Positions 4,998-34,718 of a DNA stretch of 64,000 bases are shown piece after piece. Each line of letters starts with the position of its first letter. Within the stretch, counting starts at the first letter, position 1. Position numbers and translations under genes: made by a program. The notes under the pieces are model-generated. The model saw only the letters and a list, made by a program, of their open reading frames with translations. It made no database searches and was not told the DNA's origin. The DNA is from Glandiceps talaboti. Its lineage: Eukaryota; Hemichordata; Enteropneusta; Spengelidae. Where the stretch lies: assembly GCF_964340395.1 (NCBI RefSeq), contig NC_135556.1, forward strand, positions 7,178,001-7,242,000. Direction: 5' to 3'.

Positions 4998-5137
4998 TCA
5001 TTTAATACAAATACTACCATTATTTCGGGATCCACAATCCTCACAATCGGTTCCTAGGGCACAAAGACTATCGAGAGATCCGGCTCCTCCGTCGTCACAC
5101 TCACCATCATCACTATATAAACAGATTTCGGAGCAAA
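4998..5137 (-). CDS. Cysteine-rich terminal exon A of secreted family 1
   Basis: Read on the minus strand, a splice acceptor (ctttcctcaacag) is followed by two bases of a split codon and 45 codons plus a TGA stop. The peptide begins CSEICLYSDDGECDDGG, continues with AGSLDSLCALGTDCEDCG and ends in ICIK. It carries seven cysteines in the same order as the other five family exons. It lacks the three codons that precede the first cysteine in most copies, yet stays in the same phase. It should code for the disulphide-rich part of a small extracellular protein. No signal-peptide exon survives just upstream (around 5680-5700), so it is either a broken copy or is spliced from the signal exon at 10634-10754. 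The tail after DCGSR is shorter than in its relatives. Confidence 0.6.
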
Positions 5138-5811
5138 CTGTTGAGGAAAGTATCACATAACTCTTTTAATTTGGTCTCCTTTAATAAAACATTTCATTCT
5201 ATAATTGTAAAGCCACTAGGCTCTGTGTCACAAGCGCTTTATAGACGCTCGTCCCTCACTGCGCTCAACAGTGAAAACTATTGCTCAGACTGACTATCGA
5301 GAATGTAGACTGTACACCTTGAGGGGCATCCTAGATCCTCACACATTGGTCAACCCCTCTCATGGCTGGTATGTTTTAGAGCTATTATTAAAGGTCGAAA
5401 TATCAGGCATAGAGTCAGAATTCAAAATAACAGCACGTGAATATCTGAATCATAATGATAATAGTAATTTAATAATAATAACAACATAAATGTAAATCTA
5501 AGTAACTCCTATAAGGTGCTGTCCCACACTACGTGCTTTACTGTTGTATTACCCCCCTTGATATTGATCTGTGTATGGCAGTACAACGCCCATTTGTGTA
5601 TATACTTCCTTAACTCCCGGGGGTCGGGGTTGGGGTGGCATATTATCCATTGCAACCTCTGTAAGCTCATAAGATTAAATAATTCACAGAACAATCTACC
5701 AATCTACTGGTGTGTACAATTAACAAATAAACATTTCGCGAACAAGGATAAGTAATATGGGGATATTAACAGACACGAACTGAATCAGAACTACTAATAC
5801 TGAATTGAATT
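5138..5811. repeat. Family 1 intron/intergenic block, next to exon A
   Basis: This block recurs beside every family 1 terminal exon (for example 8888-9500, 10090-10630, 32829-33450, 34048-34600). Landmarks are gacaatcgcttaacagacgc (degenerate here), the AT-rich run near 5450, the segment starting gtgctgtcccacactac and attcacagaacaatctacc. In the intact gene it is intron 1. Here the signal exon that should follow is replaced near 5700 by sequence from the intergenic part of the block. No gene is seen. Confidence 0.65.
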
Positions 5812-7140
5812 TTTTTTTCACCGGAAACATAAGGTAATAACATTACAGAGAGGAAAATACAAATACAGTAAAAGAAAATGCTCTGGTGAGGACCATGGAA
5901 ATAGTTTACTAGAAACTAATCTAGTCCATGGTCCTTATCCTGTCAAAATATAGAAGGTAAAGATACACGGCGTACTTATGATAAATAATTAATAATAACA
6001 AATAATATAGTAATAATCAATACACACATACATATTCACAAATCTATTATAGCACATGTACAGAAAAAGATATTTACATATTTACAGTACAAATTAGAAT
6101 CAAGAGAAAAGGTGTGTCTTTATACATTTTTTAAATTCATGTCGCTTGTGTATATTCTTAAGTTTGTTTGGTAGGGAGTTCCAATGTTTGGGTAATGCAT
6201 ATTTGAAATTCTTTTGACAAATTGTAAGATTAACTTTTGGAATGGGAATGTTACAACTGAGGGCTGATCTGGTAGGGTAGCTATGGGATAGACGGTTAGT
6301 AATGTAGTGGTTAATATTATGAGCATAGCGGTTATTTTGTAAGTCATAGACAAACATGCATGTTTGGAATTTACACAGTTTATGGATATCCAATATGCGG
6401 AGTTGATTGAAAAGGGGCGCAGAATGTGTTTGATAATCAGAGAAAGTGATAAGTCGAGCTAGTTTCTTTTGCAAGATTATAAGTGGTTCGAGTAATGTAC
6501 GATAGGTGTTACCCCAAATTTCAAGACCGTAACTAAGATGGGGGAGGATTAAAGTGTTGTAAAGTAAAACAAGGGTGGACCTTGGTACATAATGGCGAAT
6601 ACGAGAGATGAGTCCGATTTTGGGACTTATAGTTCGGGTTACTTTTTCGATGTGAGATTTCCAGGTGAGAGCTGGGTCGATGGAAATACCTAGATATGTG
6701 GCCGATGATACACACTTAATTGGTGTGTCGCTAATACTTAGGGTTCCCTCGATGTGAGATATCCTCTGGGGAGTTTTGATAATCAATATAGTTAGTTTTG
6801 TCAACGTTAATTGTTAGTTTGTTAGCATTGCACCAGTCGTTAACTTTTTTAAAATGATCATTTATAACATTAAGATTGATATTATTAGTTTTCATGAATT
6901 TGAATAGGTTAGTGTCATCTGCAAATAAACGAAAATTGAAGGCGTCAGTAGATTTGTTAATGTCGTTAATATATATGAGGAAGAGGATTGGTCCAAGTAT
7001 TGATCCTTGGGGTACCCCACACTTAATTTGTTTTGGATTGGAGTTGATACCATTTATGCTAACGACCTGTTGTCTATTTTTAAGGTAATTTTGAAACCAA
7101 AGGAGCGGAACACCTCTAAAGCCGTAATAATATACTAGTC
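5812..7140 (-). mobile_element. 5'-truncated LINE (CR1/Jockey-like superfamily)
   Basis: A non-LTR retrotransposon fragment in minus orientation. It contains the palm and C-terminal part of the reverse transcriptase, about 290 bases of 3' untranslated sequence and a short A-run (read as T at 5811-5819). The upstream part (endonuclease, start of the reverse transcriptase) is missing, as expected for incomplete target-primed reverse transcription. A short sequence of the form attagtagt occurs on both sides and may be the target duplication, but the flanks are themselves repetitive, so this is uncertain. The corresponding place in copy 2 lacks the element, so it inserted after the locus was duplicated. 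Confidence 0.88.
6100..7137 (-). pseudogene. LINE reverse transcriptase C-terminal half
   Basis: Two overlapping frames cover it. The upstream frame (to about 6785) has CGVPQGSILGPILFLIYIND and FRLFADDTNLF, the latter being the catalytic FADD box of non-LTR reverse transcriptases. The downstream frame (6804-6100) has YLGISIDPALTWKSHI, HLSYGLEIWG and PLFNQLRILDIH, typical of the thumb and C-terminal region of CR1/L2/Jockey-type enzymes, and stops at 6100. A single frameshift near 6785 separates them, so no active enzyme is made from this copy. A second, more decayed piece of the same family lies at 52243-52512 on the plus strand. Confidence 0.88.
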
Positions 7141-7462
7141 TGAATACTACTAATAATAACATACATGTAAATCTAAGTAACTTTTATAGGGCGCTGTCCC
7201 ACACTACACTTCACAAGAGCTTTACTGTTATATTATTACCTTTGGTATTGATCTATGTAAGACAGTACAACGCTCATTTGTGTATATACTTCCTTAAGAA
7301 ATAAATATCAATATTGTTAACGTCAATATGTATGGACTTGACAAATAGTAAATTATCCACATTGAACATCCTATAAGTTATTGATAATAAGTAGGTAAAA
7401 CAGTGTTATAATAATGAGCATTAAGATTTCCTATCCAACATCTACGCAATGACTGCCACTTT
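7141..7462. repeat. Remnant of family 1 intron block
   Basis: The sequence aacatacatgtaaatctaag through ttccttaagaaataaatatc matches the intron block at 9290-9430 and 33240-33390, then jumps at about 7325 to the intergenic part (tatgtatggacttgacaaat). The signal-exon region between these points is absent. No gene is seen. Confidence 0.6.
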
Positions 7463-7516
7463 TACCTCCAGTAAGGGGAGATATTGAAAAGGCGATATAT
7501 GTCTGTGTGTCTGTGC

Positions 7517-7579
<63 letters not shown>

Positions 7580-8565
7580 ATTCGTCCATCTGTGTGTGTC
7601 AATCTGTGTCATCATTTTCTTAAAAACGGGTGGCTCAATTATAATGAAATTTGATACATACCTTCCATCTTATGCTAACGGCAAGAACTGATTATATTTT
7701 AGTAAACATTCAATGAACATTAATAAGTTCTTTGTATAATGAATGGTTTTGAGTAATCAGGCTATATCTTTGGAACGTATACTTCAAATTAAATACGATT
7801 TTGGTAATATATCAACTATAACAAGGCGCATATGTCCTATAAGGTTTGTTGATTTAGCTTAAAGCTTTTAGGAATAACTGGCATCATTGGTGAATTTCGG
7901 TATTAGGCTATATCTTAAAAATTCGGTATTAGGCTATATCTTAAAAATTCATACTTGAATTTCGATACAATTTAGTGCATAAGTTAACAATAACTGAGCG
8001 TGTATGTCCTATAATGTTTGTTGATGTATATTACAGTTTTAATGAATAATTTGCACAATTAATGAACTTTGGTAATTCAGCTTTATCTGAGAATGCAAGC
8101 TTCAAATCTCAGAGAATTTGGTGCATATACCAACGATAACAATGCTCTCAAGTTTGGTCACATAGCCTTTACTTTTATTGAGTAATTTGAATAATTAATG
8201 ATCTTCAGTAATTAAGCTATATCCTTGGAATGTATGCTTCAAATTCCCTATAATTTGGCACATCTCCTAAAGCCTGTTGATATAGTTTTTAATCATATGT
8301 CTAATTTGCATAATCAATGATTTTCGGTAATTAGACTATTTCTTAAAAATGCAAACTTCAAACTTCAGATAATTTGTATATGTATTGAAAGAAGTGCATG
8401 TGTCATTTAAAGCTTGATGTTGTAACTTATAATCTAAATGGTCAATTTGCATAATCAATGTTTGTTTTAAGTGGTACATCATGTATAATAGCTATAGTTT
8501 AGAATTTTGCATTCTAACAATGTGTGTAGGCCCAAAAATCTATAGTTTTGTCCTGACGGGGGGCG
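7463..8565. mobile_element. Non-autonomous element with short terminal inverted repeats
   Basis: The left end reads tacctccagtaagg and the right end tcctgacggggggc; their paralogues at 30142 and 32500 read tacctcccgtaagg and tcctgacgggaggc, which are inverted copies of each other with one or two mismatches over 14 bases. Between them are a GT microsatellite and several degenerate direct repeats of about 140 bases, each built around ttaatgattttcggtaatta, ggctatatctta and cctataaggtttgttgat. There is no transposase. An inverted partial relative lies at 31540-31795, another fragment at 26050-26300, and the right end recurs at about 62640-62810. Superfamily unknown. Confidence 0.6.
7519..7577. 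repeat. (GT)n microsatellite
   Basis: About 29 GT units inside the element at 7463-8565. The copy 2 relative (30175-30200) has only a few GTCT/GTGT units. Confidence 0.95.
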
Positions 8566-8656
8566 TTCAGTATAAATCTGGTTAGTCTTAAAAGACTTCG
8601 CCTTTCAGCATTATCTCAAGAAAAATGTTGAGTTTATCATTGATAATATCACTGCG

Positions 8657-8662
8657 TTTATT
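8657..8662 (-). promoter_or_regulatory. Polyadenylation signal candidate after exon B
   Basis: AATAAA on the minus strand about 75 bases past the stop of exon B. The paralogous exon E has the same hexamer at 32593-32598. At the matching place, exons C and F have AAGAAA and exons A and D have neither. This fits use of B and E as terminal exons, but no downstream GT-rich element was confirmed. Confidence 0.4.
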
Positions 8663-8735
8663 TTACACGTCATAGTAATCACAAAATCGAGAAAATTGTT
8701 CATTGGAATTGACGTTCCTTTAAACCTAAAATGTG

Positions 8736-8887
8736 TCAATTGATACATAGAATGTTACTACCATATCGGGATCCACAATCCTCGCAATCGGTTCCTAGGC
8801 CACAACTATCATAGTCAGATCCATCTCCTCCATCGTCACACTCGCCATCACCACTGTATTCACATGTTTCGGAGCAAACTGTGTCAT
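8736..8887 (-). CDS. Cysteine-rich terminal exon B of secreted family 1
   Basis: A splice acceptor (tttcctcaacag) is followed by two bases of a split codon, 49 codons and a TGA. The peptide runs DTVCSETCEYSGDGECDDGG, then DGSDYDSCGLGTDCEDCG and YGSNILCIN. Seven cysteines are spaced exactly as in exon C. No signal exon lies next to it: the equivalent place near 9490-9510 keeps cctgtcaatgg and a weak donor but no start or hydrophobic stretch. It could be the last exon of an alternative transcript beginning at 10754, because the donor there has matching phase. The AATAAA at 8657-8662 supports a terminal exon. Confidence 0.65.
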
Positions 8888-9928
8888 CTGTTGAGGAAAG
8901 TATTATATTTATAAAAACATTCAATTCTATAGTCGTAAAGCCACTAGCCTCTTTGTGACAATCGCTTAACAGACGCCCGTTCCCCAACGCGCGCACCAGT
9001 GAAAAACTACTCTTGACTATCGAGAATGTAGACAGTAAGGTATGTCTTGAGGGACGTCTTCACACATCGGTCAACCACTCTCATGGCCGGTGATGAGGAC
9101 AGCTAGAGTGAGAATGATTCTATTAAGCCTGTGTTGGAGAGTACAAGAGATCTGTGTTTTAGTGCTATTATTAAAGGTTGAAATTTTAGGCACAAAGTCA
9201 GATTTCAAATTATAATAGCACTTGACTATCTGAGTCAAAATAATAATAATGATAATAATACTAATACTAGTCTAAATACTAATAATAATAACATACATTT
9301 AAATCTAAGTAACTTTTATAGGGCGCTGTCCCACACTACACTTCACAAGAGCTTTACTGTTATATTATTACCTTTGGTATTGATCTAGACAGTACAACGC
9401 CCATTTGTGTATATACTTCCTTAAGAAATAAATATCAATATTGTTAACGCCCGGGGGATTATCATTCAGTGCCGCCTCTGTAAGATTAATGCATTCACCA
9501 AGCAATCATGATACCATTGACAGGACTGCAATAAATTATGGTGTATACGATAATCAAATAAACATTTCGTGAACGAGGATATGAAATGTGGGGATATTAA
9601 TAGACACGCACTGAATCAAACCGTTGCCCATATGTATGGACTTGACAAATAGTAAATTATCCACATGGGACATCCTATAAGTTAGTGACAATCAGTAGGT
9701 AAAACAGCGATATAATAATTAATAATTAGCATTAAGATCTCCTATCCAACATCTACACAACGACTGCCATTTTAAATCTTAAAAGAATTCACCTTTCAGC
9801 TTTAGCTCAAAAAAATGTTCAGTTTCTCATTGTTAATATCACTGCGTTTCTTTTGACACTTCATAACAACCACAAAATCGAGGGAATTGTGCTCATTGGA
9901 ATTGACGTTACTTTATAACTAAAATGTG
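8888..9928. repeat. Family 1 intron/intergenic block between exons B and C
   Basis: It contains the recurring intron block (8940-9430), a degenerate signal-exon remnant near 9490-9520, and the intergenic run aaattatggtgtatacgat through catcctataagttagtgac. Close relatives lie at 32829-33892. Plus-strand short frames over the intergenic run are not conserved between copies. No further gene is seen. Confidence 0.6.
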
Positions 9929-10754
9929 TCAATTGATACATAGAATGTTACTACCATAAGATCGGGATCCACAATCCTTGCAATCGGTTCCTAGGCGACA
10001 TACATCATAGTCAGATCCGGCTCCTCCGTCGTCACACTCGCCATCATCATTGTATGAACATGTTTCGGTGCAAACCATGATATCTGTTGACGAAGTACTA
10101 CATCTGTCTGTTGGTCTCCTTTATAAAAAAACATCACATTCTTTTGCCTCTTTGTGACAATCGCTTAACAGACGCCCGTTCCCCACCGCGCGCACCAGTG
10201 AAAAACTACTCTTGACAATCGAAAATGTAGACAGTAAAGTATGTCTTGAGAGAGAGAGCGAGAATGATTCTTTTAAACTTGTGTTGGAGTCCAAGAGATT
10301 TGTGTGTTTTTAATGCTATTATTAAAGGTCGAAATTTTAGGCATAGAGTCAGAATTCAAAATAATAGCACGTGAATATCTGAATCATAATGATATTAATA
10401 GTAATTTAATAATAATTACATAAATGTAAATCTAAGTAACTTATATAGGGTGCTGTCCCACACTACACTTCACAAGAGCTTTACTGTTAAATTATTACCC
10501 TTAGTATTGATCTATATATATAAGACAGTACAATGCCCGTTTGTGTACATACTTCCTTAACCCCCTGGGGGGCATATTGTCCATTGCAGCGTCTGTAAGC
10601 TCATAAGATTAAAAAATTCACAGAACAATTTACCAATGTTGGTCCTATTGACAGGAACGCAATCGTGGTTCAAATCTTGCGCAACGACGTTAGAAGTTTG
10701 AAGTGACAGCAGTGAGATTAGAAGACACAAGTCTGAGCAAATCGAACATATCAT
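9929..10754 (-). CDS. Small secreted eight-cysteine protein, family 1 (intact two-exon gene C)
   Basis: Exon 1 is 10754-10634 and exon 2 is 10083-9929, on the minus strand. Exon 1 starts MICSICSDLCLLISLLSL and has a hydrophobic core followed by NVVAQDLNHDC, a plausible signal peptide cut near VVA-Q, so the product should be exported. The donor is attg|gtaaat after the first base of a codon, and the acceptor gtcaacag leaves two bases, so the junction makes Asp and the frame continues: IMVCTETCSYNDDGECDDGG, then AGSDYDVCRLGTDCKDCG, ending NILCIN. The total is 91 residues, with eight cysteines after the predicted cleavage, enough for four disulphides. The DGECDDGG...GTDC.DCG motif occurs in extracellular proteins of algae and marine invertebrates. 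The function is unknown to me. The start is the only ATG that includes the hydrophobic segment. A CRE-like tgacgtta lies about 75 bases upstream; no clear TATA box is seen. Confidence 0.72.
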
Positions 10755-13041
10755 AACGCGAATATTCCATAAACATGAACCAATTTACATGTATTGAAAG
10801 TTAATACCCCGGATCGTAATGATAATAACGTCACTGTGAAATTGACATGACTTTGATAACAAGTTTTAACCTTGACAAACAACGGAACTGTTGTGTTGAC
10901 TGTTTGGACTCTATAAGCACACATTCAACGTGACAATGACATGGTTACTAAAAGACTTCACAAACGTTCATTAAATGAATGAATAGACGTTTTCCTTAAC
11001 CAGTAATACCTATATCTTACTATCTGGTGCATCTTGGGATCCAAAAGCATAGCAATCAATTCCTAGGATAGTTTTTACCTTCCGCACGGTAATGGAAGGT
11101 ACGCATTAGGGAACGGTCAGTTTCTCTAGGGGGGGGGGTTTCTTAAATCGAGTCGACAAAAAGTCACTGATCCCCCATCTGTAAAACCAAAAACAGGCTG
11201 ACCCCCCTATCACTTAATTCTAAGACATGATGAACCCCCCCCCCCCCCCACCATATAATATTCACCTGACAGGTATTTTTTATCATGACTCGGTGTGGAC
11301 TGCTTGACTGTCTTGCATCTACTTTATTAGATCCCGGGTTAACACTCTCAGAATTATAGAATTAACACAGGGTAAATATATTCCAAAAGGAGTTTAATAA
11401 CATTTTGAAAGTGAAATGTAGGGGGAAAGCTTGAGAAGATCTGTACAGGGTGCTTTTAACTCTGAAAAGTCAATTTTGAGACTATTCAAACATTTTCAAA
11501 CAATAATTTCCAAGCTTTATAAGACAGCACCAAAATGTGTTGAAATGTTTTTGAAATACGGTTTGATAGCATCTTGACAGCAAGAGGTAGGGGAGAGCTT
11601 GAGACGGATGTGTACACCTCATGTGGGGGGGGGGGGTCGTTATTCACTATAATTAACTACATACAAAGGGTTACATCACGTGTAAGATTATTCAACCACA
11701 GAATGATCTCATGATCAGGGAATGGCATTTATGATTATTATCTTTATTTAGCTTATGTATGTATGTATGTATGTATGTATGTATGTATGTATGTATGTAT
11801 GTATGTATGTATGTATGTATGTATGTATGTATGTTTCGTCGTTTCTCAGGCTTCAAATTCAATATGATTTGGGTAAGTACTTTGATAACAAAGAACATGT
11901 TTCATATAAAACAGAAAGTGTAATAATAGTTATTAGAGCTTGTAGTTTTTTATTGATTTATTTGCATAATTAATGATTTTCGATAATTAGGCTATGAATA
12001 AATATGTAGCATAATAATTTAAGTACGCAGTAAAAATTACATCCCACCTCAGCTTGTGCCCCTTGAAGTGATCGTTTTGTATTTTGGGAGCTGGTTTTTG
12101 GGTGCGGACCCCAAAATAAATTTTATTGGATTGAAATTGCACCATTACTACATGCACAACTACACAGTGTACATGGTGGTGATGGAAACAATAGACAAGT
12201 GCAAGAAAAATACCTATCATATCATGTAATTAAAGTAATAAAGTATACAGCAGTCGGTTCATTACTAATTTGCATAATTGTATTTTGAGAAATCATGCGA
12301 TACAGAGATGGTGAAAGCGACTTTTGTGACACAACCTAAAGGTTATAATGAAATCAGCCTCGCCCTTGTTCAACTTTAATATGTTCCAGTGCTAACCCCC
12401 AACTGGAAAGAGAGGCAACATGATCACAATGAAAACGGCTGTGTTGAATACCTCATGTAGTATATGATTAATGAAGATGTGATATACAATATACGTACCT
12501 ATTTCATTCACTTGTTTCTATACAGAGAAAAATGAAGAAAATGAGGTAAATATAAAACACTACATCCATTGTGACCTTTATCGTGATATGTACTGGTTCA
12601 ATAATACGGTTTATTTTAAAGAACATTAAACATGCATTATCCTCCAACTGACATTATTATATCACTCCCAATGTAATCAATGGAGATCGGATGCATCGGA
12701 CCCGTGCAACAAGTTTTCGGTCCGGGATCACGCATGCCCTGGAACACTTTGTCCATGGAAAGTGGTATATCGTTGCTTATTGCTTTAGCTTTTTTTTCTT
12801 AATATCTTATTTTTTGCACAATGATCCACTATCAAGTTCTGTGGAACTACGTGATTCAAATGATGTTTCAGTGTGCCACTACATAGGGGTACATGATAAA
12901 AAGATTATGGCCCGGATTTTGTTTTTAATTCCAGTAAACAGTTCCAGCAGTTACTGATGTTTGCTCCTGGGACCAAACGGGTCCTGTTAAGTCCACTAAA
13001 CATCTGAGTCGTATAGTAATATAACTATCAGTTAATTGTCC
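10755..13041. repeat. Tandem locus, end of block d and block e, copy 1
   Basis: Bases 10755-10900 match 34719-34860. From about 11040 the sequence is paralogous to 35440 onwards: long G and C runs facing each other (11130-11240 and 35480-35540), the phrase tattccaaaaggagtttaat, and the T- and AT-rich part to 12700. Bases 11940-12000 repeat a motif of the element at 7463. A 26-base imperfect hairpin (taccttcc...ggaaggta) lies at 11077-11102. The frame at 12691-12957 is not preserved in copy 2. No gene is supported. Confidence 0.65.
11755..11834. repeat. (TATG)n microsatellite
   Basis: About 20 tetranucleotide units. The matching site in copy 2 has no such array; a LINE fragment lies there instead (36905-37925). 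Confidence 0.97.
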
Positions 13042-13715
13042 TTACCACCTCTTTAGATAAGATACATAGAAATGAATACTGTTTATCGATGGATTCATTG
13101 AACTATCACATAAAAAAGCTAATGTATTTCCGACAGTCATGCACCTTTGTAATTTGTATGATGATATACATCGTCGCATATCACGGCCTCTTTCACGATA
13201 TCGTTCAAAATGCTTCGTCGGGTTCGCAGTGTCGCAGAAGAAATAACAGCTCTGGTTTGCGAGAATGAAGACACATATCGTATCGTACAGCCCTAACCAG
13301 GCTTCTATCTGATAGGGTGACACGTCCGTGTGTTGCTTACTTGACAAATCAACCATTGGTGTACGTGTTTTATATTACAACAATGGTGTAGTTATTCTTC
13401 AATAAATTGATCATGGGCATCACTTAAAGCTTCTAAAACATTCAGTTCGCACTCGTCTTGTGAGTGAAACAAGGCTGAGGCGTCGGACTATAAAAATAGT
13501 TGTGTATTACATATTAGAAAGTGTCCTAGATTCTCCTAGTTTAGACGGCCACAACAAGTTTGTAAGGTGATTACCTGCTTTTGTGTTTTCGATAACTTGT
13601 CAATGAGACTCCTTTGAAATTCCTTTTCAGTAAGCTTCATATTCTTGTAGAGCTCTGCCTGGACCAAAACCAAAGCAGCTAAGAAGACGGTAACCATGAA
13701 AACCTGAAACTTCAT
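13042..13715 (-). CDS. Small secreted six-cysteine protein, family 2 (two-exon gene)
   Basis: Exon 1 is 13715-13575: 47 codons beginning MKFQVFMVTVFLAALVLVQA, a strong signal peptide, then ELYKNMKLTEKEFQRSL and DKLSKTQKQ. It ends at a good donor, gcag|gtaatc, in phase 0. Exon 2 is proposed as 13308-13042 after acceptor ccctatcag: 88 codons starting IEAWLGLYDTICVF, with QSCYFFC, RRC, QRC and FLC, ending YLKRW and a stop. That gives 135 residues with six cysteines in the mature part. The start chosen is the methionine just before the hydrophobic core; an upstream in-frame ATG at 13754 is not kept in the paralogue. The exon 2 acceptor is the least certain point, because the frame is open further upstream. 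The paralogue at 41337-41809 preserves exon 1 and both splice sites. I do not recognise the family. Confidence 0.6.
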
Positions 13716-14304
13716 CTTGTTCTGATGGCTGTCTTCTCGTCTTTTCTTTTTCAAGTGTACCGCTGACGATGACGACTACAACTAAATATCCTATTCACCT
13801 TGGTTGCCTTAAATAACATTTACCCCAATTTGCCTCACAGATACGTATTGGATGATATCTATCACGTGATGCTTTACATAGATGTCTCTTCAGCTTCACT
13901 TTGTCCCTAATCTCTTGAACCATGAAACTATATTCCTCAAACTAGTTTGTTTTACAATGAAACTGTCCATTTAATTTGTAAACCATGTCGATAGTATGTG
14001 AGATGCTAGTACTATGCTGTATACAACTTTTTTTTAGGCATATTTACATTACATTTTGAAGGTTTTCTTCACGATACTACCCATCCATTGTGTTATATAT
14101 CATCTGTATACCTTGCAGCATTTAATTGTTCCAATTTAATAATTCCAATATTGTAAAGAAAAGAAGATGATGTGTTTTAAGGATACAATACTCAACTGTC
14201 ATCTCACTGTACCATTGTCTTACAAAGGGATTGGGGATTAGTAATATCTTCTGCAGTTGTACTCTGAATCAAGGAAAAGAGCATTTGGAATCGTATGGCT
14301 GCTT
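13716..14304. repeat. End of block e, copy 1
   Basis: Upstream flank of the family 2 gene and boundary with the next tandem copy. Bases 13975-14040 match 42030-42085, and 14110-14304 match 45610-45797. A probable promoter lies in the first 100 bases, but no TATA box could be defined. Nothing else is seen. Confidence 0.6.
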
Positions 14305-14490
14305 GAACCATTTTCGCATTAAATAATGTATTTTTCTATACATGAATGATTTCCAGTTCGGTACACGAGCACATATAGAAATTACAAAAGGATTGCCACC
14401 TGTTATCATTGGTCACTGCAGAAACTTATTAATACTGAACGTTTTCAGTTACTAATATTTCAATATTGCCAGACCATCTTTGCTCCTTTC

Positions 14491-14583
<93 letters not shown>

Positions 14584-14645
14584 GTATGATAGCTCTCCAA
14601 GGTGATCGAGCACTCTACTTGGCGAAAGAAGAATGAAATTATATG

Positions 14646-23940: not shown

Positions 23941-26381
23941 TTTTTTATTTGTCCTAAAGCGAAAAAAAAAACATGTTTATTTCCGATAACATGACTTCAG
24001 AAAATAACTTAAGTAGGTTGGGATTTTATTTTATTTTAATATCTTTTTAATTACTTCGACCCAAAGACAAGATACTCATTGGTCACAATACTTCCATTGA
24101 TGAGATGTAAAAGAAGTAAATGAAGACAATTACGTGATTCAGAAATAGACAAACACAATATACAGACTGTGCTGATATAGGCTGAAAAGACATCTTTTCT
24201 CTCTGGAATGTGATTTTAAAAATGTAACCACAGATACTTTGGCAAAGAAAATCTACAGAATGTAGAACCAAATTGTCATACTTTTACCTCATTCTATGTA
24301 AAAAAATGTTTAGGGTCGGGGGCTTACACTAGGGTTGGTCGGGTGATCACTTGAAGTGAGGGTTAGTTTAACACCTATTCAATGCTTGCAGTTAAAGTTC
24401 AAATTGTGTTGCGGGAAACATCGTTGTAGTAAGACCCTATATACTTCACATGTAAAGTGACATCAGAATTATGTATGGGATCACATTTTGGAAAATGTGG
24501 TCGTGTCACTTTACTTTGGCTTTGGACATCCGAAAGGGGCAGATGTGGATGGATTGGGGGGGGGGGGCAGATTCGGTTAAATATATGTGCATAAATATCC
24601 CGCTCCCATATCTATCTACAGAGGGTGCAAAATAGGCAAATTGATGAAAACTAAAGTGGAAAAATGTTCTAATAAATGTAACGAAAAATTCATTTACCAC
24701 ATTCCTGCCAAGGGTGTTTCTCGTTCGATGGACGCAAAAGGATTAGACATTGTACTGTCGTCCTTCAGTTTTCACAGTTGTGGACGAGACAGATAACATA
24801 TTATTTTCTCCTTACGTAAGACATTCAGTTTACATCATGATCTGGTATGACAATTTTCCAAAAAAAGCTAACAATATATAACTTGACTTTATACTTGGTT
24901 CATTTTCGAGTATCTGAGAAGGATGTGTTTATTTATCGATATTGGAAAATGGTGTAATTAGTGTAGCTACACTGTACTAAATCACACAGGCAATCACATA
25001 GTAAACAAGAACGACACGATTTAATGATGCTCATGAATTTGATTTAATCGAAAATAGCAGAAAATTTGAAATAGCATATATAGTCTTGATTATTTCAAAG
25101 TCGTAAGAATGTAATTAGTTCGTTCATAAAACCTGATAATTGTGTGGTTCCGATTACGCTAAATATTAGAATAGGTGGATAGGTTGATTTTTTTGTTTTA
25201 AGTTTTAACGTTTGAAGTCCGGTTTCATTGTGATATTTTTTGAGCAAGTTCCAGCAAAACATGCTTCCAAGACGAGATTGGACAAGTATTGCTATGAAAT
25301 ACAAATTGTGTGATGGCTTGATGCTGGTGGTTACCGTAATAGAAATAATACAAATATGACAAATTTTTAACTTGAAGCGAAGCTACTCAATTGATACAAA
25401 AATTTAGTTTTTCTTATAACACAATCTCTCTATCAACGTATGATCTTTTCCCCCATGATACTATATGTATACGACTAATCTTGATTAATTGTAATGTTGT
25501 TAGAATTCCTCGTATAATTATAGAAAATTAGTACGTTTTAACAAGAAACAGAATATATCCATCCTGCCATAATGAGATCTGCTCCTGGACGTCCTTTATT
25601 ATTTTCCTTTCACAACAAGAAAGAAAAGAAGAATCACGTGTTAATAGTAATAATCATGAGACATGGAACTCTACATGATGGTGACTGAAGACAGGTTTAT
25701 CCAAATGTCACTACTATATAGTGAATCTCATTGTATCATAAACACCACGTGACCACCTATAAACAGACGTGCTACAAACACACCCTCCCGATAAACAGAA
25801 AGTGGCTCATTTCAAAAAGCTATAAATTATGGTGTGTACGATAATCAAGTAAACATTTCGCGAACGAGGATAAGAAATATTGGGATATTAACACATATGG
25901 ACTGAATCAAACCTTTGACAACATACATGTATGTATGAAGTTGACAAACAATAAAGTATCCACATTGGACATCCTATAAGTTATTGATAATCAGTAGGTA
26001 AATTAGTGTTATAATTAGCATTAAGATCTCCTATCAAATACCTTCAGAGCGACTGCCATTTTTACCTCCCATAAGGGTACAGGAGGTATTAAAAGGGGAA
26101 TGTCTGTCTGTCTGTGTGTGTGTGTGTGTCTGTCTGTGTCTTAAAAACGGTTGGCGCAATTATAGTGAAATTTGGTACATATAATATTTGGGGTAATGGC
26201 TAGACCCGATTTGTTTTTGGGCGACATCTATTAATGTTAATTTGGGAAATTTGCATATCAATGAAATCAATAAAATTAAGCAATATCTTAAGGCAATTAT
26301 CCTAAGATATAATAATATAAGTGCGTATCTTTTGACACTTCATAACAACCACAAAATTTAAAACTTTAAAACTAAAATGCG
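23941..26381. repeat. Tandem locus, block d proximal part, copy 2
   Basis: Paralogous to about 2700-4997. It includes a 60-base stretch near 24375-24425 absent from copy 1, and at 26050-26300 a fragment related to the element at 7463. Open frames of copy 1 are not preserved. No gene is supported. Confidence 0.75.
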
Positions 26382-26536
26382 TCAATTAATACAAAGAATG
26401 TTACCTCCATTATTTCGGGATCCACAATCCTCGCAATCGGTTCCTAGGTCACACAACATATAGTCATATCCTGGTCCTCCGTCGTCACATTCACCATCAC
26501 CACTGAATATACAGGTTTCGGAGCAACCTGTGGTAT
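26382..26536 (-). CDS. Cysteine-rich terminal exon D of secreted family 1
   Basis: An acceptor (tttcctcaacag), two bases of a split codon, 50 codons and TGA. The peptide is TTGCSETCIFSGDGECDDGG, then PGYDYMLCDLGTDCEDCG, ending NNGGNILCIN; seven cysteines. It is the positional counterpart of exon A in copy 1 but differs from it in many residues, and is nearly identical to exon E about 6.3 kb away. No signal exon lies next to it: the place where one would be is occupied by the transposon at 27373. It may be a terminal exon reached from a distant signal exon, or a stranded copy. Confidence 0.62.
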
Positions 26537-27372
26537 CTGTTGAGGAAAGTATTATATATCTCTTTTGGTCTCCTTTATTAAAACATTGCATTCTATGGTC
26601 GTAAAGCCACTAGCCTCTTTGTGACAATCGCTTAATAGACGCCCGTCCCTAAGTGAAAAGTGAAAATACTCATACTGACTATCGAGAATGTAAACTGTAT
26701 GCGGGGCGTCCTCTAGATCCTCACACATCGGTGAACCACTCTCACGGCCGGTGACAGCGGAGCGAGAATGATTCTATTAAACTTGTTTTGGAGTACAAGA
26801 GATCTGTGTGTTTTTAGAGCTATTATTAAAGGTCGAAATTTTAGGCATAGAATCAAAATTCAAAATAATAGCACCTGAATATCTGAATCATAATGATAAT
26901 AGTAATAATAATAATAGCATAAATGTAAATCTAAGTAACTTCTATAAGGTGCTGTCCCACACTACGTGCTTTACTACCCTTGATATTGATCTGTACAGGA
27001 CAGTACAACACCCATGTGTGTATATTGAACTGGTAACTCACAGTCACGAGGGGGTAATGAACGGGTGCTATAGCCCGAATATAGGCCAGGCAATATGTGT
27101 TTTATAAGATACCTCATGCTGTGAACTCGCGGTGGCAGACGACATCGTCAGAAGCTGTCCGCCATTTTGACCAGCTGTGAATGCGCGGTGGTCACGTGAC
27201 CATGTAAAAGTTGATGGAACTATTTCCCTAGGGAAATAGTCATTCTATTTTCCTATCACGTGACTGATTCTAGCGAATCATGGCACAGCATTATCACTAG
27301 GTATATTATAAACTTCCTTAACTACCGGGGGTGGGGGACATATTATCAATTGCAGCCTCTGTAAGCTCATAA
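26537..27372. repeat. Family 1 intron block beside exon D, with a short insertion
   Basis: The recurring intron block runs to about 27021 and resumes at about 27306 (tatattataaacttccttaac). Between them is a 285-base insertion found in no other copy, bounded on both sides by gtatatt/tatatt. It contains the palindrome at 27219-27240 and gtcacgtgac at 27191. No coding frame is seen in it. Confidence 0.6.
27219..27240. repeat. 22-base perfect palindrome
   Basis: actatttccct followed by its exact reverse complement, inside the 285-base insertion. Confidence 0.95.
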
Positions 27373-28321
27373 CAGTCTGAACGGAGCTAGCCTTTTCCCA
27401 TATATCACCCAAGTTTTCCATGTATTTGCGGCAGGTAACATATTTATTTGCGGCAGTCAAATGTACGGTAGATTACGGCTCGTAGTGCCTCGTGGCGTGT
27501 GATTGCATGCTGCAGGAGAGGAAAACTCCTGGGGAAAACTATCACAGATATCGCAGTTGAACACTCATGGATTTAGGTTGTAAGGAAAGAAATGTGTCAA
27601 ATGACAATTTGAACAATATTAGGTTAAGACTTAGGTTTTACAACGCTCGGAAACTCGTTTTTCGGAGGTTGAATGTCTTCGTTTACGTACTTCCATGTGT
27701 TTATGTAGACCATGGAAGTGTGTAGACCATGGCTATACAATAGGTCGTAGCCTAAACATCAGTGAAAGTAATATCGACTAAAATTCATGTATCACTGCAA
27801 AATGTGATATATACACAAATGTATTATATGTATGCACATTTTGTAAAGAAAAAAAACCCGCAGTCACAGTTCCGTTTCTGTTATTGTGTACAATTTTCTA
27901 CAATCACGTCTTACTGAAAAAATAATATATTCTACGTACAGTTTCAGTGGTACACACTACCATTATTTTACACAGTGCACAATTTTTAATGTTTTTCTCA
28001 CAAATAATTTAGTTTGCATGCAATAATCACACTTACTTTTACATTATATTGTGTACATTATTTTTCTGTTTTTCTCACAGTTTAGTTTGCATGCACAATT
28101 GTGCCACAAAACATGATGAAACAGAATACATCATCTCTAAAACATGTGATATTGTATTCGTGTAGATTTCAATAATGCAACTTTCCAGTTCATGGAATGC
28201 TATGTCAGCTATTTCGGCACCTGTTAGTGGCCACAGAATTTATCATGGAGGAATTCACCATGTAAAGTTAACCTGAAGCTTTACATTTTGAAATTGAGCA
28301 TTTTGGCCTTAACAGTAAGAA

Positions 28322-28402
28322 CAAATAGTTGATATACATATCTCTTCTCTTAAAGTTTACACTGTGCAAACTTCGAGAAGAGATATGTATATCAACTATT
28401 TG
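28322..28402. repeat. 81-base hairpin with 28-bp perfect stem
   Basis: Bases 28322-28349 are the exact reverse complement of 28375-28402. The stem continues, after a small internal loop, with six more pairs (aagttt/aaactt), leaving a nine-base loop. The size is like a microRNA precursor, but perfect pairing of this length is also common in transposon-borne palindromes. Confidence 0.9.
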
Positions 28403-28509
28403 ACACCAATGTTAATATTCATATTGTAATTATCATTCTCTTTGCAAACAGAATTTAGTTCACGTGTAGGATTTTCACTACATTTTATTTTTTCACCAAG
28501 ACTGCCATC

Positions 28510-28821
28510 GTGGCAAACAATGACAGAACAGAACAAAAATATAGCAAAGTATGTGTATACGAATGGAGTTCTCAGGACATCACAGCAACTATAATAATTT
28601 TGTATGACCAGGATTCTGCAAGTAAGAGAGAAAAAAGAAATTTAGAAACTATATATTGGAAAGCACCCTCAAGAGGAAACAATTCAAAATACTATGAAAA
28701 TGTTAAAACTGGTATTAGCACTCCATTAAATTTTAGGACAAGCTTTAATCCTTTTGAAAATTTAGCAACAGATCATCAGGACAAAAAAACCCTAAAAACC
28801 TGGCTGCCATCAATAAAATGA
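28510..28821 (+). CDS. Unrecognised 103-codon frame inside the transposon
   Basis: Begins MANNDRTEQKYSKVCVYEWS and ends TWLPSIK. It is charged and not low complexity. It lies wholly within the transposon at 27373-29853. No domain is recognised and there is no second copy to test conservation. It might be a decayed element protein or a chance frame. Confidence 0.2.
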   Translation: MANNDRTEQKYSKVCVYEWSSQDITATIIILYDQDSASKREKRNLETIYWKAPSRGNNSKYYENVKTGISTPLNFRTSFNPFENLATDHQDKKTLKTWLPSIK

Positions 28822-29853
28822 AGTTCACCAAGTTGTTTCACTGTTCATCACCAAAATTATACATGAGAAGTAAATACAAGTGATGACCAACAAGTCACAA
28901 ATATGAAGTGTTTGGATTTAGAAGAAACTGAATACACAAATGGTCAATACTTCTCTAGTATAACCAGAAAGAAAAAAAATTGAAAGAGCTCCAAAGTGAA
29001 CAAGGGTCACACTTTTCCAATAACTATAGCTGATCACCAGAGCATGCACCAGAGCATGAACCCACAATTACAGATTTGACAGTCAAAAATAGAGAAATTT
29101 AACTTGTAATCTTCAATATTTACTGACTCCAAGATGACTGGTTACATATGAGAACCAAGTAGTTTGGGTTCATATGTGTCGTGTAGCAACTTTTCGCTGG
29201 CTTCCAACGTCAATACTGAGAATAGCTTTGATTTGAGGAAAATCGACCACTAACTACAGTCACCTTTTCTAACAAGTAAACAATAGAAACCAGGTGGTTT
29301 GTATAAACCACTTTGACTTGGGTAAATTCGGATTTCTGACACACCTTAACAACAAAGTCTTCTGACTGATCGCTCGGCAATGCCCCCCAATGTCGGCCAT
29401 CTTAGGTTCTGAAGGCCGCAGAAGAGATCGAAAACATGGGGTTCTTACGGTCATTTACAGGGCTTGGACAACTCTGAAACAAAGTTAAGGGGCTTGATCG
29501 ACTACAAGACTGTCCAGGAAAGTGAAAATGTTTACTCGAATCGAGGGCGCATGTATATGCGGCAGCAAAATATACTGCTATACTGAGCGACCGTCGAGAT
29601 CGAAAATACGCCCGTAAAACAAGAAGTACCACTCAGAACTTCCAAAAAAAATCATAACATAAACTTACCTGTACGACACGAATATCCATGGATGTTCCAA
29701 GTAGTAGTATTCCTCTAGATGGGCAAAATCGACTGTAACATGTCGGTGAAAATTTGACTGTAACAGTCAATCATTGCGCGCCCTCACAACATTTATTTGA
29801 AAGAAATTCTCATCAATATGATTATGCAAATGAAGGTAGCTCCGTCCAGAGTG

Positions 29854-30141
29854 ATAAGATTAAATCATTCACAGAACAATCTAACAATCTTGATCCTATT
29901 GACAGGAGTGCAATAAATTATGGTGTGTACGATTATCAACATTTCGCGAACGAGGATGTAAAATATTGGGATTTTAACAGCCACGAACTGAATCAGACCG
30001 TTTGCTATATGTATGGAGTTGACAAACAGTAAATCATCCACATTGGATATCCTTTAAGTTATCGATAACCAGTAGGTAAAATAGCCTTATAATTAGCATT
30101 AAGATATCCTATCCAACATCTATACAACGACTGCAACTTTT
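29854..30141. repeat. Family 1 block beyond the transposon
   Basis: Continues the block interrupted by the transposon, from ataagattaaatcattcaca to the start of the inverted-repeat element. A plus-strand frame (29754-30032) is open here only because four bases present in most other copies (atcaaATAAacatttcg) are missing; it is not treated as a gene. Confidence 0.6.
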
Positions 30142-32500
30142 ACCTCCCGTAAGGGGAAATGTTGAAATGGCGATGTCTGTCTGTGTGTGTATCTGTCCAT
30201 CCGTCCATCTGTGTATGTCAATCTGTGTCATCATTTTCTTAAAAACAGCTGGCTCAATTATAATGAAATTTGATACACACCTTTCATATGCTAATGGAAA
30301 GAACTGATTAGATTTTAGTAAACATCCAATGAACATTAATAAGTTATTTGCATAATTAATGGTTTTGAGTAATCAGGCTATATCTTTGGAATGATTACTT
30401 CAAATTAAATATAATTTTGGTCATACATTAACCATAACAAAGCGCATATGTCCTATAAGGTTTGTTGATTTAGATAATTAATGAATTTCGGTAATTAGGC
30501 TATATCTTAACCAGATGTAAACTGAGCGCTAAGGGAACCACCAATTATTAAAATTAAACTAAAAAAAACTATGGTATAAACAAATTTGTGTTGCTGAGGA
30601 GAACTGTGAACTTGGTATACACCATGATAATTTTTATTTCTGAACGATGTGTATGTGTGAACTATGGTTAATCTCAAATGAATCTTCGAAGAGCATGAAG
30701 TGAACTGTAAGTAAAGAAGCTGAAAAAAAGGTTTCAGTTTGAGTGAGATGAAATGGTGACATGGGTCCAGCAATGTGGTGTATTTATTTATCGCTTTGGC
30801 CGTGAAGGAGATGCTCCATCGGAATGGCCGTGCTATTAATGGAGACCTTTTGTAATCACGTCTATTACTAAGTAACCAATCACGTGTATAAGTAATGATA
30901 ATATTTCGTAGTTTCTAAACTATCCAAGACGGCACATGAAAGTGGTGAAACGTTTTGCATACGATGTGTTATATTCAAATTTGACAAGTAAGGCGTAATT
31001 TAGCTGAAAACCCACTCAACTTTGCAATTCAGATGTGAATCGCTTCTATTTGCATTTACATTGTAGGAATTGTAGGATTTGGTTCACGCCGAATTCAAGA
31101 AGCCCGAAAATCACAGCAAACGCTACCTACAATATTATACAGTCGACATGTTCGAATCATGGACGCCATCTTGCCATATTACACTTCATGCATACGCATT
31201 TGTCTTCATTGCATTCTCGCACGGAATGAACTTCGTAAAGGTATAACTCGATTGAAATGTAGACACTAGAGCCAAAGGGAAGATCTAAAAATATACAGTA
31301 TTTGGATACTCACCAAACGTTTTGGATTTGGTCTGCTTGACCCGCTAATTTGGGCAAACTAGACGCAAACCATTGACAACGACCGGCCGCTGAGGGCAGC
31401 CTTCCGAGTTTACTCAAATTAATATAGCGTAATTATATTAATTCATATTGTCTTAACAGTTTAAAATACATGAACAAATGTATTTTCTTATGTTTGATGA
31501 ATATACTAATTTCTAATATTGAAATTGAATTATGGAGTCTTAAGATATTGCTTAATTATTTGATTTCATTAATATGAAAATTTCTCTAATTAAACATTAA
31601 CCGATCTGGCTCAAAACCTAATCAGGTCTAGCTATTACCTTAAAGATTATATATTCCAAATTTCATTACAATTGAGCCAGCGGAATTTTAGAAAATGATG
31701 ACACAGACACACATACACAGACAGACAGACAGACAGACAGACACACAGACAGACATTCCCCATTTAATACCTCCCATACCCTTACGGGAGGTAAAAATGC
31801 ATACTTCAATTTCAATATAATTTAGTACATAAGTTAACCATAACTGAGCGTGTATGTCCTATAATGTTTGTTGATGTATATTACAGTTTTAATGAATAAT
31901 TTGCATAATTAATGACGTTTGGTAATTCCACCTTTTCTTAAGAATGCAAGCTTCAAATTTCATAGAATTTGGTGCATATATCAACCATAACAATGCACAC
32001 AAGTTTGTTCACATATCCGTTACTTATAATGAGCAATTTGAATAATTAATGATCTTCAGTAATTAAGCTATATCCTTGGAATGTATGTTTCAAATTCCCT
32101 ATAATTTGGCACATATACATCAACCGGGACAAAGTGCACATCTCCTAAAGCCTGTTGATATAGTTTTTAATCATATACCTAATTTGCATAATTAATGATT
32201 TTCGGTAATTAGACGATTTCTTAAAAATACAAACTTCAAATTTCAGATAATTTTGTATTTGTATTGGTGGTCGCTGGCCAAGAAGTGCATGTGTCATTTA
32301 AAGCTTGATGTTGTAACTTATAATCTAAATGGTCAATTTGCATAATCAATTGGGCATTATGTTAACTGTGCAAGCTTCAAATTTCATTTGTAATTAATTT
32401 TCCAATTAAGTGGTACATGTATATTAGCTATAGTTTAGAATTTTGCATTCTAAAAATGTGTGTAGGCCCCAAAATATATGGTTTTGTCCTGACGGGAGGC
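30142..32500. mobile_element. Inverted-repeat element, copy 2, split by an insertion
   Basis: The counterpart of 7463-8565, with termini tacctcccgtaagg and tcctgacgggaggc. The element is interrupted at about 30511 and resumes at about 31794; the interrupted repeat units on each side match the uninterrupted copy. It carries the same degenerate repeats of about 140 bases and no transposase. Confidence 0.6.
30511..31793. mobile_element. 1.28-kb insertion carrying an inverted partial element
   Basis: Absent from copy 1, where the flanking sequence is continuous near 7920. Its right part (about 31540-31795) is the reverse orientation of the sequence at 26050-26300, including a CAGA run and the hairpin end tacctcccatacccttacgg followed by gaggta. 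The left 1 kb (30511-31440) is unique in the window; no gene is recognised in it. Confidence 0.55.
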
Positions 32501-32592
32501 AGTCAGTATAAATGTGGTTAGTCTTAAAAGACTCCGCCTTTTAGCATTATCTCAAGAAAAATGTTGAGCTTCTCATTGATAATATCACTGCA

Positions 32593-32598
32593 TTTATT
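32593..32598 (-). promoter_or_regulatory. Polyadenylation signal candidate after exon E
   Basis: AATAAA on the minus strand about 76 bases past the stop of exon E, conserved with exon B. Confidence 0.4.
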
Positions 32599-32673
32599 TT
32601 ACACATCATAACAACCACAAAATTGAGAGAATTGTGTTCATTGGAATTGACGTTACTTTATAACTAAAATGTG

Positions 32674-32828
32674 TCAATTAATACAAAGAATGTTACCTCC
32701 ATTATTTCGGGATCCACAATCCACGCAATCGGTTCCTAGGTCACACAACATATAGTCATATCCTGGTCCTCCGTCGTCACATTCACCATCACCACTGAAT
32801 ATACAGGTTTCGGAGCAACCTGTGTTAT
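32674..32828 (-). CDS. Cysteine-rich terminal exon E of secreted family 1
   Basis: An acceptor (tttcctcaacag), two bases of a split codon, 50 codons and TGA. The peptide is TGCSETCIFSGDGECDDGG, then PGYDYMLCDLGTDCVDCG, ending NNGGNILCIN. It sits where exon B sits in copy 1, and its flanks match those of B, but the exon itself differs from exon D by only about two residues. This looks like sequence transfer from D. One unusual change is Glu to Val before the sixth cysteine. No adjacent signal exon is intact (remnant near 33470-33500). Confidence 0.63.
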
Positions 32829-33892
32829 CTGTTGAGGAAAGTATTATATATCTCTTTTGGTCTCCTTTATTAAAACATTCCATTCTATGGTCGTAAAGCC
32901 ACTAGCCTCTTTGTGACAATAGCTTAACAGACGCCCGTTCCCCACCGCACTCACCAGTGAAAAACTACTCTGACTATCGAGAATGTTGACTGTAAGCCAT
33001 GATGGGTCGCCCTCACACATCGATCAACCCCTCTCACAGCCGGTGAGGACATAGTGAGAATGATTCTATTAAGCCTGTGTTGGAGAGTACAAGAGATCTG
33101 TGTTTTTATTGCTATTATTAAAGGTTGAAATTTTAGGCATAAAGTCAGAATTCAAATTATAATAACACTTGACTATCTGAGTCAAAATAATAATAATGAT
33201 AATAATACTAATACTAGTCTAAATACTAATAATAATAACATACATGTAAATCTAAGTAACTTTTATAGGGCGCTGTCCCACACTACACTTCACAAGAGCT
33301 TTACTGTTATATTATTACCCTTGGTATTGATCTATGAAAGACAGTACAACGCCCGTTTGTGTATATACTTCCTTTAAATAGGAAATAAATATTAATATTA
33401 TTAACTCCCGGGGAGGGGGGGGGGGTTATCATTCAGTGCCGCCTCTGTAAGATTAAATCATTCACCAAACAATCTTGATAATATTGACAGGACTGCAATA
33501 AATTATGGTGTATACGATTATCAAATAAACATTTCGCGAACGAGGATATGAAATATGGGGATATTAACATACACGAACTGAATCAAACCGTTGCCCATAT
33601 GTATGGACTTGACAAATAGTAAATTATCCACAAGGGACATCCTATAAGTTATCGATAAGCAGTAGGTAAAACAGCGTTATAATAATTAGCATTAAGATCT
33701 CCTATCCAACATCTACACAACGACTGCCATTTTAAATCTTAAAAGATTTCGCCTTTCAGCTTTATCTCAAAAAAATGTTCAGTTTCTCATTGTTAATATC
33801 ACTACGTTTCTTTTGACACTTCATAACAACCACAAAATTAATTGAGGGAATTGTGTTCATTGGAATTGACGTTACTTTATAACTAAAATGTG
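32829..33892. repeat. Family 1 intron/intergenic block between exons E and F
   Basis: Paralogous to 8888-9928, including the degenerate signal-exon remnant and a G-run at 33410-33424. No other gene is seen. Confidence 0.6.
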
Positions 33893-34047
33893 TCAATTGA
33901 TACATAGAATGTTACTACCATAAGATCGGGATCCACAATCCTTGCAATCGGTTCCTAGGCCACACAGACTATAGAGAGATCCGGCACCTCCGTCGTCACA
34001 CTCGCCATCACCACTGTATGAACATGTTTCGGAGCAAACTGTGGTAT
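33893..34047 (-). CDS. Cysteine-rich terminal exon F of secreted family 1
   Basis: A good pyrimidine-rich acceptor (gcttcccctacag), two bases of a split codon, 50 codons and TGA. The peptide is TTVCSETCSYSGDGECDDGG, then AGSLYSLCGLGTDCKDCG, ending SYGSNILCIN. It is the counterpart of exon C and keeps its tail. The exon is intact, but the adjacent signal exon (34609-34718) does not stay in frame, so an intact product would need another first exon. Confidence 0.63.
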
Positions 34048-34608
34048 CTGTAGGGGAAGCATTACATCTGTCTGTTGGTCTCCTTTATAAAAAAACATTC
34101 CATTCTTTTGCCTCTTTGTGACAATCGCTTAACAGACGCCCGTTCCCCGCCGCGCGTACCAGTGAAAACTACTCTTGACTATCGAGAATGTAGACAGTAA
34201 GGTATGTCTTGAGAGGCGTCCTAACACATCGGTCAACCCCTCCCTTGGCCGATGAGAGCGGAACGAGAATGATTCTTTTAAACTTGTGTTGGAGTACAAG
34301 AGATCTATGTGTTTTTAATGGTATTATTAAAGGCATAGAGTCAGAATTCAAAATAATAGCACGTGAATATCTGAATCATAATGATGTTAATAGTAATTTA
34401 ATAATAATAACATAAATGTAAATCTAAGTAACTTATATAGGGTGCTGTCCCACACTACACTTCACAAGAGCTTTACTGTTATATTATTACCCTAAGTATT
34501 GATCTATATAAGACAGTACAACGCCCGTTTGTGTACATACTTCCTTAACCCCCCCCCCCCCCAGCCTCTGTAAGCTCATAAGATTAAAAAATTCACAGAA
34601 CAATATAC
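34048..34608. repeat. Intron of the second family 1 gene
   Basis: Matches 10084-10633 along its length, with a C-run at 34549-34562 replacing the G/C-rich stretch. The plus-strand frame 34209-34415 lies within this repeated intron and is not treated as a gene. Confidence 0.6.
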
Positions 34609-34718
34609 CAATGTTGGTCCTATTGACAGGAGCGCAATCGTGGTCCAAATCTTGCACAATGCTGAAGTGACAGCAGTGAGATTAGAAGACACAAGTCTGA
34701 GCAAATCGAACATATCAT
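34609..34718 (-). pseudogene. Signal-peptide exon of family 1, copy 2, frame not maintained
   Basis: Nearly identical to the exon at 10634-10754. It begins MICSICSDLCLLISLLSLQ and keeps the donor (attg|gtatat) in the same place. It is 11 bases shorter just after the hydrophobic core, so the frame no longer reaches the donor and runs into a stop. No other in-frame start is visible. Confidence 0.65.

Follow-up and report, generated by a model that had tools for sequence, protein, structure and literature searches.

Introduction

In genes of the calcitonin/CGRP type, a common leader part is followed by a few alternative last exons, and the resulting peptides differ in kind. In insect serpin-1 genes, the part shared by the alternative products comprises most of a serpin. 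As described in a report on PpSerpin-1, a secreted immune or venom protein, a shared upstream part is combined with one of many duplicated C-terminal exons of 44–50 amino acids (aa), the alternative exons show a higher ratio of nonsynonymous to synonymous substitution rates (dN/dS), and all 21 forms were confirmed by reverse transcription PCR (RT-PCR) (PMC10513286). For Drosophila pip and PGRP-LC, another work describes a mutually exclusive choice among homologous terminal exons arranged in tandem; it treats these exons as untranslated or 3' variable regions and attributes the choice to competing RNA structures (PMC9013439). Two further studies count alternative last exons among the venom-gene splicing events in lacewing and spider (PMC12758981; PMC6700725). 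Here we describe a locus of the hemichordate Glandiceps talaboti in which two tandem sets of cysteine-rich terminal exons (modules C, B, and A in copy 1; F, E, and D in copy 2) lie downstream of a leader (signal) exon. The locus was analysed in a window of 64,000 nucleotides (nt), the whole stretch of DNA under study (C9:7178001-7242000; contig NC_135556.1), and the genome searched comprised 590,416,875 bases in 47 contigs.

The locus resembles the calcitonin/CGRP type in having a shared leader and alternative ends, but its exons are tandem duplicates. It is like insect serpin-1 (PMC10513286) in its layout of duplicated, fast-evolving terminal exons; the domains are unrelated, the shared part would be the leader only, in contrast to the larger shared part of serpin-1, and the joined forms are predicted from sequence. 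Tandem homologous terminal exons are also common to the locus and to pip and PGRP-LC (PMC9013439), but no compensatory intron pairs were found at the locus. A shared exon limited to the leader was not met in our literature search, which is not proof of its absence from print.

An initial annotation of this DNA had proposed that one leader could be joined to alternative modules in both sets. For copy 1 this is still the best single reading, although we hold it at somewhat less than even likelihood: copy 1 would be a single gene, in which splicing from the leader (10754-10634) to a single module, C, B, or probably A, would give small secreted peptides. For copy 2 the proposal failed, because the leader is frame-shifted.

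Results

Organization of the locus

The introns, size, and gene layout of the window are of eukaryotic type. The two module sets sit inside a larger tandem duplication that spans much of the window. As previously proposed, the six modules (Table 1) are homologous phase-1 terminal exons, all six open up to a stop codon of their own; homologous, in tandem, and in the same phase (6/6), they have the features looked for in mutually exclusive terminal exons. The acceptor ..TCAACAG precedes five of the six modules, and F instead has ..CCTACAG. Each module had been credited with eight cysteines, which was wrong: there are seven in each of the six, and the eighth would be supplied by the leader in a leader-joined product. 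The copy 1 leader has one cysteine in its mature part, and its joining to C gives this eighth cysteine. No seventh module was found in the window by tblastn with A, C, and D (next match, E 0.22).

An intact signal exon had also been assigned to each set. In copy 1 the exon upstream of the modules is intact, and its phase-1 donor matches them. The corresponding exon of copy 2 is not intact: it lacks 11 nt present in copy 1, its ATG frame reaches a TAG before the donor, and the copy 1 leader peptide matches 34718-34609 in two frames (tblastn). In a diverged third set located just beyond the window (set 0, locus L018), the leader has the same length as that of copy 1 at this place (by eye), so that the 11 nt were lost in copy 2. 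A tblastn search of the window with the leader peptide gave two matches, 10754 and the broken 34718 (next match, E 0.43), which leaves a single intact leader alongside the six terminal exons. For copy 2 the best reading is a duplicate whose leader has been lost; its modules are still intact, but no usable leader lies in the window.

The AATAAA reported 3' of the stops of B and E was present, at 74 and 76 nt, respectively. Downstream of C, neither AATAAA nor ATTAAA occurs for 1,266 nt 3' of the stop, the next one being that of B, and neither occurs within 782 nt 3' of the stop of F; a weak TATAAA lies 12 nt past the stop in both C and F. Since the first canonical poly(A) signal past C is that of B, a message started at the leader should hold C and B in one pre-mRNA.

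Another signal-peptide-like exon was observed at 41809-41672 and 13715-13575 (minus strand), its protein being 66% identical between the duplicated regions. It ends in CAG|GTAATC, in phase 0 (by eye). The one at 41.8 kb was considered as the missing leader and rejected because of this donor phase (by eye): a phase-0 donor cannot feed phase-1 modules, and the exon must belong to a different gene.

Origin of the leaderless units

A complete unit consists of the 3' end of the leader exon, an intron, a module, a short flank, and an element designated R, in this order. Units B, E, and D open at the same point, where the end of R (..TTTATTGC) runs directly into an internal part of the leader exon (..TCCTGTCAAT..). 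At this join R ends in ..CCATAATTTATTGC, and ATTGC is common to both partners. The junctions were located by alignment for E and D and by eye for B; with BLAST (E 1e-4), the leader end was recovered at D alone. Unit A has the same arrangement, with its junction eroded by deletion. The last R of either set continues into non-leader sequence, which is common to both sets.

The common breakpoint inside the leader exon in B, E, and D indicates that the extra units were apparently duplicated without the leader, and the extra exons have no leader of their own, since their units open within that exon. One founding duplication broken inside the leader exon, followed by copying of the unit, explains both the junctions and the terminal R elements. 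On this account, the extra units would never have had a promoter or a signal-coding part, and neither was detected at the leader remnants of units B, E, and D.

A different origin, put forward in the initial annotation, is a decaying array of once-complete two-exon genes. The leader remnants invoked for it, near 9,530 and 33,500, are present, and further ones were found at 29,914 and 5,703 (33,500 by pairwise alignment, 29,914 by alignment and BLAST, and 9,530 by visual comparison with 33,500); the adjacent set 0 is also decaying. However, only the 3' end of the leader is joined to R, eroded further in A, and the remnants of B, E, and D begin at the same internal leader point without a detectable promoter or signal part. 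The modules themselves are not decaying. This origin is contradicted by the shared breakpoint and the intact cores, and we consider it very improbable.

Some other elements were observed at the units. A deletion in R beside unit D opens an ATG frame at 29942-29872 (minus strand) that crosses the junction and continues in the leader frame (MLIIVHTIIYCTPVNRIKI..). This frame is a possible makeshift leader, in an interval for which 2.7 such candidates are expected by chance and two were found. A region of about 2.5 kb inside the intron of unit D (27367-29859) has 23-nt imperfect terminal inverted repeats and is transposon-like, and a broken reverse-transcriptase element (6100-7183, minus strand; RVT_1, E 2.8e-14) lies at the site where the module of the fourth copy 1 unit has been lost. 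Upstream of the copy 1 leader (~11070-11020, minus strand) are relics of a dead module exon, which align with an open exon of L018 (7302-7177).

Constraint on the modules and gene conversion

Sixteen residues of the core are invariant across nine bacterial loci (see below), and all 16 are kept in each of the six modules. Across the modules, 22 of 51 columns are variable, none of them in the core (hypergeometric, 9.5e-6). In ten pairs of five modules, the proportions of synonymous (pS) and nonsynonymous (pN) differences were 0.208 and 0.000 in the core and 0.201 and 0.208 outside it. In the tail, a stretch that codes only in a terminal exon, pS was 0.353 and pN 0.070 (ten pairs of A, B, C, D, and F), and the tail stop and tail cysteine are present in 6/6 modules. 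Exon E was left out of the pS/pN and codon analyses because of its conversion. Between C and F, 14 of 155 exon sites differ versus 26 of 586 flank sites (Fisher P 0.043). Neutral simulations were run for A, B, and D only, starting from F and with branch lengths taken from the flanks. A, B, and D were left open with the full 16-residue core in 0 of 30,000 runs, and in 4 of 30,000 without the stem branch; a second simulation, in which stops, the seven cysteines, and frame-shifts were scored, gave 5e-5 to 1.7e-3 over six settings.

Since leaderless units carry constrained cores, the extra exons were probably expressed as protein in the recent past, for which splicing from the leader upstream is the simplest route; with modules that are also terminal, the simplest account would be one leader joined alternatively to C, B, or A. 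Alternative joining is thus suggested by the leaderless duplication, the constrained cores, and a tail that is apparently constrained too. Set 0 was also counted in its favor, as a neighboring set in which a dead leader goes with a decayed module: there is an in-frame TAG in the leader and no donor GT (by eye), and the module lacks one core glycine and ends early.

The history of exon E differs from that of its surroundings. Exons D and E are 0.013 apart (2/155 sites) with flanks at 0.191, whereas B and E have a flank distance of 0.068 and an exon distance of 0.178; 29 of the 30 informative columns of exon E side with D (gap columns counted). Judged from these distances, the E exon is probably overwritten exon-wide by D sequence through gene conversion, while its flanks stay B-like. 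Because of this conversion, the contrast between exon and flanks in B-E was not used as a sign of fast change. The exons of B-C (Jukes-Cantor (JC) distance 0.145 versus 0.127 in the flank) and A-D (0.171 versus 0.183) fit the flank distances, so that the direction was probably from D into E.

Evaluation of the single-leader reading

Several observations weigh against one leader joined to alternative modules in copy 1. The modules of copy 2 are intact despite its broken leader, and an intact module is therefore no proof of a working leader. Exon divergence is about that of the flanks, and a codon model with free omega was no better than one with omega = 1 (log likelihood (lnL) -473.87 versus -474.25). 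As read from these comparisons, the core shows constraint, the tail shows it weakly, and the absence of breaks is the only other sign of it; with exon and flank distances of like size and an omega of 1 not rejected, the whole-exon average rate would hide the constraint on the core. The tail cysteine and stop would survive by chance with a probability of 0.24 (before frame-shifts), and the exons of A and F are closer than their flanks (JC 0.137 versus 0.217). The leader taken by itself stands little above chance: upstream of C, three signal-like ATGs with a phase-1 donor were found, versus 1.4 expected (20 shuffles). Finally, a phase-1 GT follows the core in 6/6 window modules, with none in another phase, and an exon beside set 0, taken as internal, scores 4 of 7 as a donor, the same as D and E.

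Some of these observations would be accommodated if C alone were used and A, B, D, and E were relics kept alike by youth or gene conversion. Conversion does act here, D having converted E, and the closeness of the A and F exons relative to their flanks suggests that conversion from F-like exons may have partly refreshed A; an overall omega not different from 1 and the intact appearance of copy 2 with its non-working leader point the same way. However, the B-C exon distance is not below that of the flank and the A-D distance is near it. B and D thus do not look like fresh copies of C or F, and yet their core is perfect, a neutral survival that was very unlikely in the simulations. Exclusive use of C appears to us unlikely.

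The gene structure usual for this family raises another explanation. When the own genome was searched with leader plus C at E up to 0.001, 35 matches were obtained, spread over nine contigs; at least two are to the leader. By the core pattern, 35 modules were counted in the window and the fetched stretches: six in the window, two in L018, and 27 elsewhere (one fixed pattern was applied to the fetched loci, three of which contain masked bases, and for the modules elsewhere only phase-1 acceptors were sought). The domain exons elsewhere have the same core as those of the window, C..C..DGxCDDGG..C..GTDCxDCGxR and variants, but 18/27 are internal-like, with a phase-1 donor of at least 5 of 7 after the core (phase 0, 0/27; phase 2, 0/27), while the window modules end in a tail and a stop. 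Such strong donors in phase 1 only are as expected of serial 1-1 exons, and all six window modules have the phase-1 acceptor.

Under serial splicing, a single message would contain leader, C, B, and A, spliced together at weak phase-1 donors and encoding a three-domain secreted protein, the tails of C and B being intron. Weak donors exist, ATG|GTAGTA or, in D and E, GAG|GTAACA, and the retention of the phase-1 GT, together with the score that D and E share with the exon beside set 0, agrees with their use. This exon has CAG|GTAGTAAG, and the sequence past it can be aligned with the ATG|GTAGTAAC, tail, and stop of the modules. Serial splicing would also account for constraint on every module. 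Against it, no window module reaches 5 of 7 (0/6; scores 3, 3, 3, 3, 4, and 4, with D and E at 4), a contrast with the modules elsewhere for which P is 0.0045 when related modules are treated as independent, which they are not. In addition, the tail looks protein-constrained in A, B, C, D, and F, its stop and cysteine are found in all six modules, and a poly(A) signal lies just past the stops of B and E. The family's usual gene structure makes serial splicing a serious rival, one not weighed in the initial annotation, although on the whole its likelihood seems low. The alignment with the exon beside set 0 also bears on the single-leader reading, since it indicates that the tail, the seventh cysteine, and the stop probably derive from an intron whose donor has weakened; the module tail would thus probably be a former intron turned coding.

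A conserved 40-nt block (GTAGTGTGGGACAGC..TATA..AGTTACTTAGATTTA) was observed about 340-460 nt upstream of each acceptor, at 10466-10427, 9339-9300, 7207-7168, 5532-5493, 34458-34419, 33286-33247, and 26965-26926 (minus strand). Its first 15 letters, GTAGTGTGGGACAGC, are exact at all seven places found, one of which is the partial fourth unit; the chance expectation with up to two mismatches is 0.04. No other 40-nt stretch of the aligned unit is less diverged than the block (0.055, versus 0.072 for the best exon stretch and an intron mean of 0.33). In a consensus fold of the six introns, none of the 68 pairs showed a compensatory change, so that competing RNA structures were not supported.

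Each unit might instead have an unseen start of its own, provided by an internal promoter at this TATA-bearing block, a distant leader, or trans-splicing. The exactness of GTAGTGTGGGACAGC and the low divergence of the block would fit such a start, and copy 2 needs another leader if its modules are used. However, the TATA letters are the variable part of the block (by eye). No signal-like phase-1 first exon was found in the C-B, B-A, or F-E intervals by the same ATG/donor scan, and the E-D interval has two candidates versus 2.7 expected by chance. We regard starts of this kind as improbable.

Proposed products and their significance

If the copy 1 leader is joined alternatively to its modules, the predicted junctions run from 10634 to 10083, 8887, or 5137. 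The products would share their N-terminus and differ in an eight-cysteine body made of six core cysteines, one from the tail, and one from the leader. Splicing would skip C to reach B or A, the product would be secreted, the leader cysteine may pair with the tail cysteine, and the loops would be the part that usefully varies. A wider proposal, for which our confidence is lower and which we offer only tentatively, is that of a one-gene diversifier: leaderless exons would be used at once via the sole leader, loops would vary on a fixed core, conversion would swap exons, and an intron-derived tail cysteine would be combined with that of the leader.

If the extra exons are used, a secreted peptide would multiply by the copying of its coding end alone. 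A duplicate without promoter or leader, usually expected to die, would in that case be functional at once through splicing, and three stages would stand next to one another, with copy 1 as the working set, copy 2 retaining intact modules behind a broken leader, and set 0 already decayed.

Relatives of the six-cysteine domain

The same six-cysteine core was found in nine bacterial loci (L001-L009) from seven metagenome-assembled genomes (MAGs) of Myxococcota, Phycisphaerae, and Flavobacteriales, in uncharacterised proteins. The core is alike, but there it lies within a longer open frame (91 to 856 aa) with no leader-tail layout; L001 has a cysteine at the tail position, as in the window modules. 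In the Glandiceps genome, two modules were observed head to tail in one open frame at L025 (4636-4863, plus strand), indicating that the domain also occurs in series.

Pfam-A gave no family, Notch LNR included, for any of the six modules (E up to 10) nor for the leader-C product (E up to 1). Among the best Pfam and NCBIfam stretches listed for the nine bacterial proteins, none extends over the core (the positions of further L002 stretches are not shown); NCBIfam was compared with these proteins and not with the modules. Since the modules have no Pfam match and the core is uncovered in the bacterial proteins, the six-cysteine domain may be a family still to be described. One module had no match in the PDB, and a six-module profile had a single one (E 0.54); scans of viral contigs and a phage search with the modules gave no usable relative, and a motif search of papers did not find the core motif. 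The structure model of a module was poor (predicted local distance difference test (pLDDT) 44; predicted template modelling score (pTM) 0.22). That this animal shares the domain with Myxococcota, Phycisphaerae, and Flavobacteriales is a separate point of interest.

Features of the window

Table 1. Leader exons, modules, and R elements of the two sets, with their window coordinates.
Feature	Coordinates	Strand	Remarks
Copy 1 leader (signal) exon	10754-10634	-	Predicted; open, 40 codons + 1 nt, phase-1 donor GTAAAT
Copy 2 leader exon	34718-34609	-	Broken: 11-nt deletion, 110 nt long, frame-shift, in-frame stop
Terminal exon A	5137-4998	-	46 aa, 7 Cys
Terminal exon B	8887-8736	-	50 aa, 7 Cys
Terminal exon C	10083-9929	-	51 aa, 7 Cys
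Terminal exon D	26536-26382	-	51 aa, 7 Cys
Terminal exon E	32828-32674	-	51 aa, 7 Cys; sequence probably replaced by that of D
Terminal exon F	34047-33893	-	51 aa, 7 Cys
R element closing the C unit, its end fused to the leader 3' part opening the B unit	9529-9774	-	Join by eye
R + leader junction between the F and E units	33496-33734	-	
R + leader remnant opening the D unit	29854-30140	-	
Last R of copy 1	4533-4721	-	Into 3' flank, no leader remnant
Last R of copy 2	25822-26062	-	Into the same 3' flank
Fourth-unit remains, copy 1 (R + intron start)	7125-7462	-	Module lost; beside reverse-transcriptase element

Rfam, at its gathering threshold, found nothing in the window, and a motif scan of the next 20 kb past it found no module. 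A further copy of the duplicated region begins at 45596-51674 (also L030 and L031). A 25-bp minisatellite occupies 52506-55058, with about 94 copies in its main array.

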